Assembly (NCBI GenBank): GCA_903955385.1
Contig: CAJBNH010000055.1
Span: 1 to 56,040, forward strand
Source: an uncultured Myxococcales bacterium
Lineage (GTDB): Bacteria > Myxococcota_A > UBA9042
Direction: 5' to 3'
Length of the DNA stretch: 56,040 bases
A program made the position numbers and the translations under genes. The notes under the pieces were generated by a model, which saw only the letters and a program-made list of their open reading frames with translations, was not told where the DNA came from and did no database searches. Positions 39,186-47,543 of the stretch are shown in pieces; within the stretch, counting starts at the first letter, position 1, and each line of letters opens with the position of its first letter.

Positions 39186-41894
39186 TCAGGTGAGCGGCAG
39201 GGCCTGCTGGTCGACCGGACTGCGCCGTGGCAGGCGGACGATGAACGTGGTGCCGACGCCCGCTTCGCTGGTCAGCTGCAAGGTGCCGCCCAGGCTCTGC
39301 ACGACGCGGCGAACGATGGTCAGCCCCATGCCCATGCCGCGCCCGGGGCCCTTGGTCGTGAAGAAAGGCGTGAAAATACGCGCCTTTGCTTCATCCGAGA
39401 TGCCGTGTCCGTTGTCCGCCACCGTGACCGTCACCCAGTCGTCGTCGCCGCGTCCGGTGACCGACACGCATCCGGATTCGTCGGCGACGGCCTCGATGGC
39501 GTTTTGCAGCAGGTTTGAGAGGACCTGGTTCAGTTCCTCGGGTACGCAGTCCACATGGCCGTCGCCCTCCAGATCGACGTCCACCTTCACCGGCCTTCCC
39601 GTCGCGGGCAGCACCATGGCGACGATGTCGCGAACGGCACCAAAGGCGTCGTAGAGGCGCATGGCGCGGGAGTAGCCCTCGCGGCTATAGCGCCCCATCA
39701 GGTCCACCGTCGCCGCGATGCGCTTCACGCCTCCGTCGGCCATCTCGATCATCTTGTGGACGCGTTCCTCGTTCTTCTGCAGTCGGGCGATCTCCTCGTC
39801 GCTCAGCGCGCGGCCGCGGGCGACCTGCATCAACTCGACGGTGTCATGCACGTCGATCTCCACCCGCCTCAACGCATTTTTCACGTAATTCAGTGGGTTA
39901 TTGATCTCGTGGGCGAGTCCCCCGGCAATCGTCTCCAGCGAGTCCAGCCGTGAGTTCAGCAGCAGATCGGCCTGCGTCTCCTGAATGTTCAGCAGCGCCC
40001 GTGCGGTCGAGAGCAGCTCCTTGGCCGAGAACGGCTTGCTCAAGTACGCGTTGACGCCGGTGTCGAGACCGCGCACCCGGTCCTCCAGATCGCCGCGGGC
40101 CGTCAGCATCACAATCGGCGTGTGGCGCGTCCGCGGGTCCTCGCGCAACCGACGGGTCAGCTCCAGGCCGTCGATGCCCGGCATCATCAGGTCGGTAATG
40201 ATCAGCGACGGCAGCTCTCGCACCGCCATCTCGAGACCCTTCAGCCCGTCGGGAGCCGCCATGACCTTGAAGTGACGCCGCAGCGCCAGGTGAATGACGC
40301 GGATGACGTCTGGGGTGTCCTCGACGATCAGCACCGTCCATTGGCGCTGGTTCTCGTCCTGGTCGCGCTCGACGACACGCCGCTCGGTCAGCTCGGAGAT
40401 GTCCAACAGCCGGAAGTCATCGCGTCCATCGACCTCGACCGCTCCGCCCAGAATCTCGATCTGGTGGGGCCGGCCGACCTTGAGCGCATCCGCCGGCTCT
40501 GAGGCGTCGGTCAGTGTGTCCGGACGGAAGTGGCTGCGACCCTTCAGCAGTTCGACCGTGAAGCAGGCGCCCTTGCCCTCTGCGCCGCGCGCATAGATGC
40601 GGCCACCGTGCAGCCCGACCAGCTCGCGGGCCAGCGCCAGACCGATGCCGGTGCCACCGTGCTTGCGGGTGCCGCCCATGTCGACCTGGAAGAACCGCTC
40701 GAACACCCGGTCGGCCATCTCGGGGGGGAAGCCCGGGCCATCGTCGGCAACCTCGATGCGCACCGCCCCCCCGTCGTCGAACAGCCGCACGGCGATGTGG
40801 CCCTCAGGGGGCGTGAACTTCACCGCATTCGACAGCAGGTTGATCATCACCCGCTCGATGCGCTCGATGTCGCACCAGATGTTCGCGTCCGCAACCGAGG
40901 TGTTGAACACCAATGCCACGCGCTTGCGTTGGGCCAGCGGCTGCACGTGCCCCACCAGATTGCCCAGCCATTCGACCATGTCGTGCTGCGCGATGCGCAA
41001 GCGGAGGCGCGACTCCTCCAGCTTGGTCAGGTCAAGCAAGTCATTGATCAGGTTCAGCAACTTGAAGCCGTTGCGAAACATCGTCTGCAGGGTCGACCGC
41101 TGCACGTCGGTCAGACGGCCCAGCTCTTCCTGAATCAGCAGCTCCAGCGGCGAGAGGATCATCGCAAGCGGCGTCTTCAGCTCGTGCGTGATGTTCGCGA
41201 AGAACTTGGTCTTGAAGGCGTCGAGCTGCTGCAGCTGCGCGTGCGCGCGCTCGAGATTGGCTGTCGTCTGCTCCAGGCGGATCTGGTTGAGCACCTGGTC
41301 GCGGTTGGAGCGAAAACCAAACGCTTGCGCTGCCGTGACGACCGTTGCCGTCGACGACACAAAGAACAGGTTCGGCGCAGCCCACGCCCAGTTGATCGGG
41401 ACGCCGTGAAACGCATTGGGAATGACATAGGAGGCCACGACCAGACCGTACGTCCACGCCGCCTGCCGCCCCGTCCACACGAACAGCAGGCCGACACCCA
41501 TCACGGACAGGTTCAGGCCCGCGTAGTACGGCGTCTCGTAGCCGCCCATCACCACCGTCATGACCGAGATGCCGCCGCCCAGCATGACCGCGTGCCCCGA
41601 GGTCAGGACGCGCCAGTGCCGACTGAAGAACTCACCGCGGTGGATGGCGAGCAGCCACAGGCTCCACAGCGAGACCACCGCCCGCGTGGTGAACAGCAGC
41701 GGCCACCACTTCGAGGGCGCCACCATCCAGTCCAGCAAGCCGAACATGGGGTAGATGGTGATCGTGAGCCAGAACGCGATCCGGGTGCTCATCCGGTTGC
41801 GTTCGAGCAGCCACGATTCCCACCGACGCTCCACGTCGACGGGGTCGGCCTCCAGCGGCTGCGTGTTCGGCCGGTCTGGGTTCAGACGGAGCAT
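39186..41894 (-). CDS. membrane hybrid sensor with two histidine-kinase cores (5-6TM-HK-REC-HK), PhcS/PhcR-like
   Basis: The 902-residue product has five or six transmembrane helices (about 38-190), a first kinase core with His237 in HELKTP, N and G boxes (NLLSNAVKF, DDGPGFP, GGTGIGLAL), a receiver at about 519-640 with Asp568 in IITDLMMPG and Lys620, then a second, complete kinase core with His662 in HEINNPLNY and ATP-binding motifs NLLQNAIEA, DNGHGIS and GRGMGMGL. The ATG at 41894 overlaps the stop of the upstream methyltransferase gene by one base (TGATG), so translation is coupled. It has the combined domain set of PhcS (membrane sensor) and PhcR (receiver plus kinase). Dual cores allow an internal phosphorelay. 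The ligand is not known. Confidence 0.92.
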   Translation of the reverse strand: MLRLNPDRPNTQPLEADPVDVERRWESWLLERNRMSTRIAFWLTITIYPMFGLLDWMVAPSKWWPLLFTTRAVVSLWSLWLLAIHRGEFFSRHWRVLTSGHAVMLGGGISVMTVVMGGYETPYYAGLNLSVMGVGLLFVWTGRQAAWTYGLVVASYVIPNAFHGVPINWAWAAPNLFFVSSTATVVTAAQAFGFRSNRDQVLNQIRLEQTTANLERAHAQLQQLDAFKTKFFANITHELKTPLAMILSPLELLIQEELGRLTDVQRSTLQTMFRNGFKLLNLINDLLDLTKLEESRLRLRIAQHDMVEWLGNLVGHVQPLAQRKRVALVFNTSVADANIWCDIERIERVMINLLSNAVKFTPPEGHIAVRLFDDGGAVRIEVADDGPGFPPEMADRVFERFFQVDMGGTRKHGGTGIGLALARELVGLHGGRIYARGAEGKGACFTVELLKGRSHFRPDTLTDASEPADALKVGRPHQIEILGGAVEVDGRDDFRLLDISELTERRVVERDQDENQRQWTVLIVEDTPDVIRVIHLALRRHFKVMAAPDGLKGLEMAVRELPSLIITDLMMPGIDGLELTRRLREDPRTRHTPIVMLTARGDLEDRVRGLDTGVNAYLSKPFSAKELLSTARALLNIQETQADLLLNSRLDSLETIAGGLAHEINNPLNYVKNALRRVEIDVHDTVELMQVARGRALSDEEIARLQKNEERVHKMIEMADGGVKRIAATVDLMGRYSREGYSRAMRLYDAFGAVRDIVAMVLPATGRPVKVDVDLEGDGHVDCVPEELNQVLSNLLQNAIEAVADESGCVSVTGRGDDDWVTVTVADNGHGISDEAKARIFTPFFTTKGPGRGMGMGLTIVRRVVQSLGGTLQLTSEAGVGTTFIVRLPRRSPVDQQALPLT

Positions 41895-43447
41895 CACGTG
41901 CGCGTCACCACCAGGAAGGGGTTGATCCGCGTGCGATCTTCGGCGATGCGCAGCGGGGCGTCAGGCAGGGCCTGGCGGCCAAAGCCGAGCATCTCGGCCT
42001 GCGACCGGTAGATCAAGGTCCAGTCAAGGTGATGCTCGAAGATCCAGCGACATGGGTTGGCCGGGTCCATGTTGCCCACGTACGCCTCACCGCCGGGCAC
42101 CAGCTGCAAGTGCAGGTTGCGGGTCAGCGTCACGGCGGTGGGAATCCGCAGGTAATCGTAAAGCCCTGAGCTGAAGATGAAATCGAACGGCCCTTGGTCG
42201 GCGAACAGCGTGGGGTCGTGCAGCAGGCGCTTGATCGAGTCGTGCAGGAACACCAGCTTGATCAGGCCGCGGCCGTGGCTCTCGACGGCTGGCCCCAAGC
42301 GACGGTGCGCGAAGGACAGCGCTTGCTTGTCCTGATCGAACAGCACGATCTCGATGGGTCCCGCGATCTCCTCGACCTCCAACAGAAATTCCAGTGTTTC
42401 CTGCGCGGGGCCGGCTGCCACGGAGGCAATCCGCACCGGCCGACCCGGACGGGTCTCGCGCGCCAGCTCAAGCAACCGAGCCTTGATCACGTCCTTGCGC
42501 GCCCGCACGGCTTGGGCCGGCAGCGAATCGCACGAGGCGAGGTGCAGCGCCTTGCCGTACAGCGTGGCGCCCTCAAAATTGCGGAAGTACATGTAATTCA
42601 TAGACTCGAAGTCACCCGGATACCCCAGCGGCTTGTATCGGGTGCGGTGCAGCAGCGGCGCGGGCATCAGCAGCTGGTGCAGGTGACGCACCGAAAACGC
42701 CTTCAGCACCTCGTTGTCGGCCCGATTTGCGCGCCGCATCGCCTGGTCGATCCGCGTGAATCGGTCGAGCACCTGCGGCACAAACTCGGCGCGCAACCGC
42801 TCGATCAGGGCGCGGCGCGCGGGCAGGTCCGCCTCACCGTGCACGACGGACCACGGCAAGTCCGCTTCCATCTTGCGAAACGCCTCTTCGGCGTCCTCCA
42901 GGAACAGGCGGAACTCGGCAACGTGGGCGCGAAACGCCTCGTGTCCCTCGATCGACCACTCGGCCTGACCAAACGACAAGTCCGACTGGACGCCCCGCCA
43001 GGTCACGACATGGCGCAGGCTCAGCACGTCGTCGATGCTGACCAGCGCGTCGGCAAAGGACACGCCCACCACCTGTGCATCGCCCCGACGGCGCAGCGAG
43101 GTGACCCGCGCCCCGCCGTCGTACAGCACGTGGCCGTCAAAGCCAACGGTCAGGCGCTGCAGCACGGCACCCACCGAAGGAATCGCGTCCCCGGACCACG
43201 CAAGACCGACGCCGGACGCCGAGATGTCCACCAGCTGGCAGATCTCTACCGCGCCGTCCCACGAGACCTCGACCGCCGACGTCAGCGGCAGCAGATCTTC
43301 GGGACGATAGCGCTCTGGGCGGAAGAAGATCTCGCGGCCCTGTGCCCCTTCCAACTCTTCGTATTCTCTGATCTCTCCCATCGACTGCAGGCCAGCCCCC
43401 CGCAGGGCGGCGCCGGAGACGGTGGGAACGTCGGGGGTCAGGGTCAT
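41894..43447 (-). CDS. PilZ-domain/PhcB-like methyltransferase fusion
   Basis: The 517-residue product has a PilZ-like N-terminal domain (about 40-135) with DISASG (Asp74, Ser76, Gly79) but an imperfect RxxxR (RPERYR, Arg43, 46, 48). A helical linker follows, then a methyltransferase domain with KPLGYPGDFESMNYMY, PAQAVRARKDVI, motif I in IASVAAGPAQETLE, DQDKQAL and SSGLYDYL. This matches proteins annotated as extracellular-factor (3-hydroxypalmitic acid methyl ester, PhcB-type) synthesis enzymes. Known biology: PhcB makes a volatile fatty-acid methyl ester sensed by PhcS. GGAG lies upstream of the ATG at 43447. Its stop overlaps the hybrid kinase start. The PilZ part may link c-di-GMP to signal synthesis; the degenerate motif makes that uncertain. 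Confidence 0.82.
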   Translation of the reverse strand: MTLTPDVPTVSGAALRGAGLQSMGEIREYEELEGAQGREIFFRPERYRPEDLLPLTSAVEVSWDGAVEICQLVDISASGVGLAWSGDAIPSVGAVLQRLTVGFDGHVLYDGGARVTSLRRRGDAQVVGVSFADALVSIDDVLSLRHVVTWRGVQSDLSFGQAEWSIEGHEAFRAHVAEFRLFLEDAEEAFRKMEADLPWSVVHGEADLPARRALIERLRAEFVPQVLDRFTRIDQAMRRANRADNEVLKAFSVRHLHQLLMPAPLLHRTRYKPLGYPGDFESMNYMYFRNFEGATLYGKALHLASCDSLPAQAVRARKDVIKARLLELARETRPGRPVRIASVAAGPAQETLEFLLEVEEIAGPIEIVLFDQDKQALSFAHRRLGPAVESHGRGLIKLVFLHDSIKRLLHDPTLFADQGPFDFIFSSGLYDYLRIPTAVTLTRNLHLQLVPGGEAYVGNMDPANPCRWIFEHHLDWTLIYRSQAEMLGFGRQALPDAPLRIAEDRTRINPFLVVTRT

Positions 43448-43492: not shown

Positions 43493-44698
43493 CTATGCCG
43501 GCAAGTCGGCGGTCGGCAGGTGGATCTCGAAGATGGTGCCGCCGCCCGGTCGGTCGTGGCAGGCGATGCGGCCGTTGTGGCTGGTGACGATGAGGTGGGA
43601 CATGTACAGCCCCAACCCCATGCCCTGTTCGCCCTTGGACGAGACGAAGGCCTGGAACAGGTGCTCCCGCAGGTCCTCGGGAAAGCCGGGGCCCTCATCC
43701 TCGACCCGATAGACGATGTCGGGACCGCTGTGGCTGACGCGAATCGCGATGCCCTGTTGCGGCTCCGTCGCCTGAACGGCGTTGCGCAACAAATTCACCA
43801 GCACCTGCACGAGCTTCTGTCGATCACCAAACAGCGGAGGCAGGTCACCCGTCGGCGCCTCGACGTCGACCCGCCGCACCCGGAAGCTCAGGTCCAGACG
43901 CATCACCGTCACGGCATCCTTCACCACCTGGGCCGGATCGAAGTATTCCACCGCCATCGACATCCGCCGCTGACGGACGAACTGGTTCATCGTGTCCAGG
44001 GCGTTCATCAGGTTGCGGACACCTGCGACGCCCACGGTCACCGACTCGACAAGTTCCGGGTCGGCATCCCGCGCGTTGATCTCCCGCTCCAGATGCAGCA
44101 ACCCGTTCATGGCGTTGCGCAAGTCGTGGGTGATGCCGGCCGCCAGACGACCGGTCGTGGCCAAGCGGTCCAAATGCAGCATGTTCTTCTGGGCTTCTCG
44201 CAGCTCTGCCAGGGCCTCCGCCAGCTCGTCGGAGCGCGCCGACAGCAGCTCGACCAGACGCAGAATGGCGCGCTGCTGGGCCACGGCCTCACTGGCGCGA
44301 GAGACGGCGTCCAGCACCTCGTCGGCGTTCCAGGGCTTCTTCAGGTAGCGAAACACGCGGGCGCGATTGATGGCCGAGATCAGGGCCGGCGTGTCGCTGT
44401 AGCCCGTCAGCACGATGGTCGCGACGTCGGGGCGAGTGGCCCGGGCCCGCTCCAGCAGCTCGATACCCGTCATCTCCGGCATGCGCTGGTCGGCGATGAT
44501 GACGTCAACCGTCTCGCGGGCCAGCAGCTCCAGCGCTTCGGCACCGGAACGGGCCGTCAGCACTTCGTAGTCCGTCTCCAGAAAGGCTTGCAGTACGGCC
44601 AAGTTGGGCAGTTCGTCGTCGACCAGCAGCAAGCGCCGGGTCAGCAGCTCGCCCACGGGGTACTTGCTCAGTAGCTCTGGTATCACACAGGACCTCAC
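43493..44698 (-). CDS. response regulator with C-terminal histidine-kinase core (REC-HK), PhcR-like
   Basis: The 401-residue product has a receiver at about 22-140 (acidic pair in LLLVDDE, Asp70 in IIADQRMPEMTG, Lys121 in RYLKKPW), then a coiled linker and a kinase core with His191 in HDLRNAMNG, NLLRNAVQA, DEGPGFP and QGMGLGLYM. No output DNA-binding domain is visible. A receiver followed by a kinase is the unusual layout described for PhcR. The start is uncertain: GTG at 44698 is listed, but GTG at 44686 has GAGG before it. It is first in the operon; the methyltransferase gene begins 45 bases later. It is cytoplasmic and probably acts with the membrane hybrid kinase. Confidence 0.88.
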   Translation of the reverse strand: MRSCVIPELLSKYPVGELLTRRLLLVDDELPNLAVLQAFLETDYEVLTARSGAEALELLARETVDVIIADQRMPEMTGIELLERARATRPDVATIVLTGYSDTPALISAINRARVFRYLKKPWNADEVLDAVSRASEAVAQQRAILRLVELLSARSDELAEALAELREAQKNMLHLDRLATTGRLAAGITHDLRNAMNGLLHLEREINARDADPELVESVTVGVAGVRNLMNALDTMNQFVRQRRMSMAVEYFDPAQVVKDAVTVMRLDLSFRVRRVDVEAPTGDLPPLFGDRQKLVQVLVNLLRNAVQATEPQQGIAIRVSHSGPDIVYRVEDEGPGFPEDLREHLFQAFVSSKGEQGMGLGLYMSHLIVTSHNGRIACHDRPGGGTIFEIHLPTADLPA

Positions 44699-46283: not shown

Positions 46284-47543
46284 ATGCAAGGCAAGGGATT
46301 GTGGATCGGAATCGGCGCCATCGCCGTCTTGGTCGTTCTCGTCATCGCCGGCATGGTTGAGCGGGTCGCCCCCACTCACCTGTGGTTGTACCAACGCGAC
46401 GGAACTCCGCTTGGCGGCAGGGAAGTTCGCGTCGAAGTCGCGCCCACCCAGTCCGCCAGCTACGCGGATGCATGGGAAGTCGTGGCCAAGATCCGCAGTG
46501 ACCCAAAGGGTCGCGCTGAGATCTTGCGCGACCGCAAGTTCGGCGTGCCGTTCGTCAGCGAGCGCGACTGGTCGGTTCGTCTCGTGATTCCGGCGCCCGA
46601 CGGCGACTCGGAAGTGCGCCTCGAGCACGATCAGGGCGTCCAGATCCTGTTCGAGATGGACGGCCGCGTCACGGCGACCCTGCACTTCCGCCAAGGTGCA
46701 GGCGCTCGCGCCGACCAGTGCGTGCAGGCAGCGAACAAGCTCTTCGGCGGCCAGCCGTTCGTCGCCGGACCCAACGTCTCCGGCGCCGTCGGCAAGTCCC
46801 GTCTGGTGGCCGCGGCCGACAGCGCGGGCCTGAAGTTCACGCCTGTGCCGCGCCGCGGGGCCGATCAGGGGCCGCAGGGCCTGCTGTTCGCACTGGCCGC
46901 TGGTGCGCCGACCTGCACGGTCGAGGTCTTCCTGCTCGACGGCGCCGCTCGCGTGCCCATGTCGTTCAGCCCCGACGAGGTCACCGACTTCTCCGCGCCT
47001 GAGCTCTCCCCCATCTTCCGCCGCATCCAGCGCTTCGGCCCCCAGGGTGGCAACGGGATGCCCCCCGGCATGATGCCCCCCGGCGACATGCCTCCCGGCA
47101 TGATGCCCCGCGGCCTGCCCGGCCGTCCGACCGGCACCGACATGCCCGCGGGCATGATGCCTCCCGGAATGATGCCGCAGGGTATGCCGCAGGGTGGGAT
47201 GCCTCAGGGTATGCCGCAGGGTGGGATGCCTCAGGGTATGCCGCAGGGTGGGATGCCTCAGGGTATGCCGCAGGGCGGAATGCCCCAGGGGATGCCGCAG
47301 GGTGGAATGCCCCAGGGTATGCCGCAGGGTGGAATGCCCCAGGGAATGCCGCAGGGTGGGATGCCGCAGGGTATGCCGCAGGGTGGGATGCCGCAGGGTA
47401 TGCCGCAGGGTGGAATGCCGCAGGGTGCCGCTCCTGGCGTGGCCCCGGCTCCCGGTGTCGCTCCCGCTGCCATTCCGGCTCCGAAGGCCGCTGCGGTCCC
47501 GGCGCCTGCCGCCGCTCCGGTTCCGCCTCCCGCCGCGAAGTAG
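46284..47543 (+). CDS. membrane-anchored protein with MPQGMPQGG tandem repeats
   Basis: The 419-residue product has one N-terminal transmembrane helix (about 6-24), a soluble domain (25-250) that I do not recognise, with scattered Cys, and a Met/Pro/Gly/Gln-rich tail. The tail begins with looser GMMPPG units and then holds nine exact MPQGMPQGG copies, followed by an Ala/Pro end. The tail is probably disordered and reaches out from the membrane. GGAGG at 46274-46278 fixes the start. The gene is convergent with the VWA lipoprotein gene, with 10 bases between stops. Function unknown. The Met-rich tail might bind copper or act as a spacer; neither is shown by the sequence. Confidence 0.85.
   Translation: MQGKGLWIGIGAIAVLVVLVIAGMVERVAPTHLWLYQRDGTPLGGREVRVEVAPTQSASYADAWEVVAKIRSDPKGRAEILRDRKFGVPFVSERDWSVRLVIPAPDGDSEVRLEHDQGVQILFEMDGRVTATLHFRQGAGARADQCVQAANKLFGGQPFVAGPNVSGAVGKSRLVAAADSAGLKFTPVPRRGADQGPQGLLFALAAGAPTCTVEVFLLDGAARVPMSFSPDEVTDFSAPELSPIFRRIQRFGPQGGNGMPPGMMPPGDMPPGMMPRGLPGRPTGTDMPAGMMPPGMMPQGMPQGGMPQGMPQGGMPQGMPQGGMPQGMPQGGMPQGMPQGGMPQGMPQGGMPQGMPQGGMPQGMPQGGMPQGMPQGGMPQGAAPGVAPAPGVAPAAIPAPKAAAVPAPAAAPVPPPAAK
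47172..47426 (+). repeat. 27-base tandem repeat (nine copies plus a 12-base partial)
   Basis: The unit codes MPQGMPQGG. Nine copies fill 47172-47414 and a partial unit ends at 47426. Copies differ only at a few third positions (CCG/CCT/CCC, CAG, GGT/GGG/GGC/GGA), so the array looks recently expanded and likely to vary in copy number between strains. Confidence 0.95.

Follow-up and report, generated by a model that had tools for sequence, protein, structure and literature searches.

We report that a 517-residue protein encoded in the window, i.e. the 56,040-nucleotide stretch of DNA from an uncultured Myxococcales bacterium that was analysed here, combines an N-terminal domain with a predicted PilZ fold and a methyltransferase that appears to be PhcB-like. 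In the explanation that we favour, and to which we give an even chance, it would act as the signal synthase of a quorum-sensing locus of the phc type: its PhcB-like SAM methyltransferase, preceded by a PilZ-like domain with a regulatory role and encoded in one operon with a PhcS-like membrane receptor kinase and a PhcR-like receiver-kinase, would make a signal, and c-di-GMP or a related nucleotide would gate its synthesis. In its favour we count the PilZ fold and profile, the near-invariant motifs, the matches to a Paraburkholderia enzyme and its sensor kinase, the gene linkage, the c-di-GMP domains of the genome and the precedents MapZ and PixB. If true, one protein ties the intracellular c-di-GMP level directly to the production of a cell-to-cell signal; the finding would moreover offer an account of the N-terminal part of PhcB, so far without explanation, in which a mutation reported to delay quorum sensing lies, and name a likely synthase-receptor pair in Myxococcota. 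A literature search covering titles and the beginnings of abstracts revealed no description of a PilZ-methyltransferase or PilZ-signal-synthase fusion, and PilZ is named only as an effector class in the part of PMC10667535 consulted. The features referred to below are the following.

39186..41897, minus strand: hybrid histidine kinase with PhcS-like sensor (membrane sensor-HK-receiver-HK; Pfam, sensor profile)
41298..41834, minus strand: membrane sensor region of the hybrid kinase, about residues 22-200 (sensor profile against P0003)
41894..43447, minus strand: 517-aa protein, PilZ-like domain and putative PhcB-like SAM methyltransferase (ORF, model)
41897..42961, minus strand: helical region and class I SAM methyltransferase, residues 163-517 (model; 3ocj, Z 20.2; Paraburkholderia profile match)
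42611..42634, minus strand: KPLGYPGD signature, residues 272-279, common to the Paraburkholderia enzyme (KPLGYAGD)
43001..43279, minus strand: PilZ barrel and C-terminal helix, residues 57-149 (structure models, fold searches)
43211..43228, minus strand: DxSxxG, residues 74-79, DISASG (41-sequence alignment)
43310..43324, minus strand: FRxxR, residues 42-46 (R43, R46), in the linker ahead of the barrel (R43 40/40, R46 41/41)
43493..44698, minus strand: receiver and histidine kinase, layout as reported for PhcR, 45 nt upstream of the synthase gene

The 517-aa protein is encoded by a single intact open reading frame that runs from an ATG start at 43447 to 41894, and its stop codon is overlapped, as GTGA, by the listed GTG start of the downstream hybrid kinase gene. 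The gene order is receiver-kinase, synthase and sensor kinase, and because of their common strand and spacing we infer that the three genes form one operon. Homologues of the 517-aa protein were found in 72 of the 282 genomes of the phylum and, according to our reading of the match table, the match covers both domains in 47 of these 72 genomes (in 3 of the 47 in two pieces). That the fusion is an assembly artefact was rejected, many genomes holding both domains in one open frame. Of the 72 genomes with a homologue, 40 supplied the gene neighbourhoods analysed.

An earlier note, made from the sequence alone, had proposed a PilZ-like domain in front of the methyltransferase, and this proposal is borne out by the fold, by the profile searched against the PDB and by Pfam matches in relatives. 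Fold searches using the whole-protein model (pLDDT 89.1) returned methyltransferase-type folds exclusively, and the N-domain was therefore modelled alone (pLDDT 89.3), which gave six strands followed by a helix. With this model 37 of the first 38 rows in Foldseek (PDB) were PilZ proteins (some by our own assignment); the exception was the uncharacterised 4q63, and row 39 was an unrelated protein. VIA-align gave Z 11.7 against Alg44 (rmsd 2.5, 98 residues aligned); 3f3b, the highest-ranking chain that is plainly unrelated, reached Z 7.2. According to the models, then, the fold adopted by residues ~42-150 is that of PilZ; a fold other than PilZ, which the note had named as a refuting outcome, was not obtained.

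The Pfam PilZ score of the window protein alone is 15.5 bits, under the cut-off of 22.5, and we count this against ligand gating. Among the 37 members of alignment A1, 31 match Pfam PilZ at E<=0.1 (best 6.4e-7), and the N-domain profile A2 (37 rows) matched 19 sequences in the PDB at E<=10 (best E 0.0071), 17 of which were PilZ proteins (YcgR, Alg44, VCA0042, PA4608, BcsA, YpfA and PA0012) and two D-Ala ligases; both alignments keep 37 of 41 sequences, the near-duplicates L055, L056, L061 and L075 having been dropped. No convincing match was obtained in the PDB with the single protein using phmmer, nor any match with the whole-protein profile, and NCBIfam had nothing for the 517-aa protein. 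A chance Pfam match was rejected as an account of the N-domain, since fold, PDB profile and conservation concur.

Among solved structures, the methyltransferase domain (model residues 163-517) comes closest to 3ocj (Z 20.2, rmsd 3.1, 250 residues aligned), a protein of unknown function from Bordetella; SgvM, which is involved in alpha-keto acid methylation, is also among the nearest. In a tblastn search of plasmids the best of 142 records was a methyltransferase on the Paraburkholderia graminis plasmid pPHS1_P, where the gene is followed by a kinase gene and two response regulator genes, an arrangement that would make this operon phcBSRQ-like. The family profile matched the Paraburkholderia methyltransferase over 439 columns (probability 100, E 6e-58). 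The window enzyme is accordingly described here as probably PhcB-like, as the earlier note had it, on the basis of this profile match and of the phc-like locus; its kinship to PhcB runs through one Paraburkholderia operon. The Paraburkholderia enzyme had no matches among viral contigs.

While Pfam gave no match in the membrane part of the window kinase, a profile of 38 sensor regions scored 87.2 against the sensor of the Paraburkholderia kinase; 11 decoys (five shuffles, one reversal and five membrane-transporter stretches) reached at most 16.4. The whole Paraburkholderia kinase had 42 matches in the window's genome, and only C55:40545-41777, beside the synthase gene, reaches the sensor (from query residue 26), all others starting at query residue 182 or later. 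A kinase with a PhcS-like sensor is present within 300 nt and on the same strand in 38 of the 40 loci (all but L063 and L065), and a receiver-kinase within 300 nt in 17 of the 40. In five distant loci (L064, L066, L068, L070 and L071) the receiver-kinase gene comes after the sensor kinase gene instead of preceding the synthase gene. As in phcBSRQ of Ralstonia, the methyltransferase gene thus stands beside genes for a membrane sensor kinase, here PhcS-like by its likeness to the Paraburkholderia kinase, and for a protein (43493-44698) that according to Pfam has a receiver and a histidine kinase domain, the layout reported for PhcR (PMC8578825). Points of difference from phcBSRQ are the gene order and the hybrid nature of the window's sensor kinase, which also has a receiver and a second kinase core. 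The likeness of the receptor supports the identification of a phc-like locus. In the window kinase the receiver lies between the two kinase cores; in L048 and L050 the matched kinase frame stops near the receiver, and L052 encodes the second half in a frame of its own.

The methyltransferase might instead not be a signal synthase and act on an intracellular metabolite, or modify protein or lipid, with the kinase sensing something else. The other or unknown substrates of the nearest solved methyltransferases, 3ocj and SgvM, which we also count against our explanation, are consistent with this, as are the single operon through which the link to PhcB runs and the ~345-aa relatives without a PilZ domain in Rhizobium and Aureimonas, which sit without such a kinase. 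We consider it unlikely: the same type of enzyme adjoins the same rare membrane sensor in Myxococcota and in the Paraburkholderia operon, and the members of this pair in Ralstonia are reported to be synthase and receptor (PMC10653808). The ~345-aa relatives are found on plasmids (L078:3719-4756, L080:4710-5756 and L081:3728-4771). In L078 (Rhizobium) the gene adjoins one for an EAL-domain protein; in L080 (record labelled Roseateles) its flanking genes encode a diguanylate cyclase/phosphodiesterase and a diguanylate cyclase; in L081 (Aureimonas) neither an EAL nor a diguanylate cyclase gene lies beside it.

Returning to the N-domain of the proposed synthase, its motifs were compared in the window protein and 40 loci, which in A1 are 26-55% identical to the window protein; the 41-row counts that follow include four near-duplicate pairs, and the rows are not independent. 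Residues 41-48 read FFRPERYR, which the earlier note had taken as an imperfect RxxxR (RPERYR) with Arg43 and Arg48 as the residues to follow in orthologs. The canonical RxxxR is indeed absent, with FRxxR, one residue shorter, in its place, but the conserved pair is R43 and R46: R43 is Arg in all 40 sequences that reach this position (one contig ends short of it) and R46 in 41/41, whereas R48 is Arg in 20/41 and was rejected as the second motif Arg. The DxSxxG that had been placed at 74-79 is there, as DISASG, and agrees with the [D/N]xSxxG of canonical c-di-GMP-binding PilZ domains; of the 41 sequences, 36 have D and 5 have N at place 74, 33 have S and 8 have A at place 76, and all have G79. 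Both Arg residues together with the exact D, S and G occur in 28/41 sequences, and in 40/41 if D/N and S/A are allowed. These residues stand out because the barrel averages 25% pairwise identity in the 41-sequence alignment and the methyltransferase 41%. The motif residues were thus retained, not lost, across orthologs, and such strict conservation argues, at the level of sequence, against a plain loss of function. The interpretation in the note consequently holds for the PilZ fold, for DxSxxG and for a PhcB-like methyltransferase in a phc-like locus, and is corrected with respect to the Arg pair.

With canonical c-di-GMP-binding PilZ proteins (Alg44, YcgR, BcsA and VCA0042) the window domain shares the fold, DxSxxG and a linker Arg pair before the first strand. 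It differs from them in its fusion to a methyltransferase, in a longer linker with a predicted short helix (residues 49-52) before the first strand and in having RxxR, not RxxxR; because of this replacement it is not classed as a canonical c-di-GMP-binding PilZ domain, and the replacement is the main doubt about ligand gating. The distance from the second Arg to D/N, 28 or 29 residues in 31/41 sequences, is also longer than in the three PilZ domains above cut-off in this genome (22-25, all with RxxxR), and this too counts against gating. At its start the VIA-align alignment to Alg44 pairs model residue 13 with chain residue 15; on our reading, and with what we take to be the Alg44 motif numbering, this would place R46 near the second Arg of Alg44.

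Aligned to the N-domain profile, the ~90 N-terminal residues of the Paraburkholderia methyltransferase (one sequence) scored 32.9, and controls (five segments from elsewhere in this protein, eight shuffles and one reversal) at most 13.1; Pfam detected no PilZ-like domain in this enzyme up to E 1. The copy would be degenerate, because it has NLQRNS at the place of DxSxxG and no stretch left for the Arg motif; the PilZ-like domain before the methyltransferase is shared between the two systems, the profile alignment of this one sequence providing the link, and FRxxR and DxSxxG are retained in the window. Since the Paraburkholderia enzyme appears to bear such a degenerate N-domain, a hidden PilZ domain may be common to PhcB-type synthases. 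The adaptive mutation R22C in phcB of R. solanacearum GMI1000 is reported to fall outside the methyltransferase domain and to delay Phc activation without abolishing it, residue 22 being conserved across Ralstonia, Cupriavidus and Paraburkholderia homologues (PMC6989110). Residue 22 of the Paraburkholderia protein is Arg and falls in the second strand in the alignment to the N-domain profile, and R22C may thus map to the hidden PilZ-like domain. A bolder reading, which we put forward tentatively and rate below an even chance, is that PhcB-type synthases as a family are PilZ-enzyme fusions, in which the Myxococcota domain would bind c-di-GMP via FRxxR and directly gate autoinducer synthesis, while the Burkholderiaceae copy would have decayed to a hidden, ligand-free regulatory domain in which R22C falls.

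Apart from the window protein, the genome encodes 8 GGDEF, 7 HD_5 (HD-GYP type) and 3 above-cut-off PilZ domains, and for this reason c-di-GMP signalling is likely present; no EAL domain was matched in the whole genome, and c-di-GMP breakdown would therefore rest on HD-GYP enzymes. In the mechanism that we propose, c-di-GMP or a related nucleotide would bind between the linker that carries FRxxR and the DxSxxG motif; with the ligand bound, the N-domain would shift its position on the methyltransferase and so change the activity of the enzyme, by analogy with MapZ and PixB. The product of the methyltransferase would be a methylated signal able to diffuse, possibly a 3-hydroxy fatty acid methyl ester as the analogy to PhcB suggests, the neighbouring kinase would sense it, and the second-messenger level would set the signal output. 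MapZ of Pseudomonas is likewise described as a PilZ protein acting on a methyltransferase, CheR1, to which it binds (PMC12564702), but it is a separate adaptor in chemotaxis and no quorum-signal synthase. PixB of Myxococcus, also a PilZ-transferase fusion, is reported to bind c-di-GMP although its second motif lacks the Ser (PMC8316039); it is an acetyltransferase with two PilZ domains, again no quorum-signal synthase.

The main rival to ligand gating is that the PilZ domain has lost nucleotide binding and is retained for protein contacts, i.e. for dimerisation or for docking to the kinase or the receiver-kinase, with R43 and R46 touching the methyltransferase domain or a partner. This possibility, to which we assign a substantial but less than even probability, fits the absence of the canonical RxxxR and the report that PilZ of P. 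aeruginosa itself does not bind c-di-GMP (PMC12564702). The Paraburkholderia relative appears to retain the barrel without the motifs, so that the domain can serve without them, and this we count against gating as well. Conversely, the linker Arg pair and DxSxxG occupy the places of the canonical ligand site and are retained together in distant members, and the genome, judged from its domain content, makes c-di-GMP.

Elsewhere in the window, a plus-strand ORF (46284-47543) has a long run of PQGMPQGG-type repeats close to its C-terminus.
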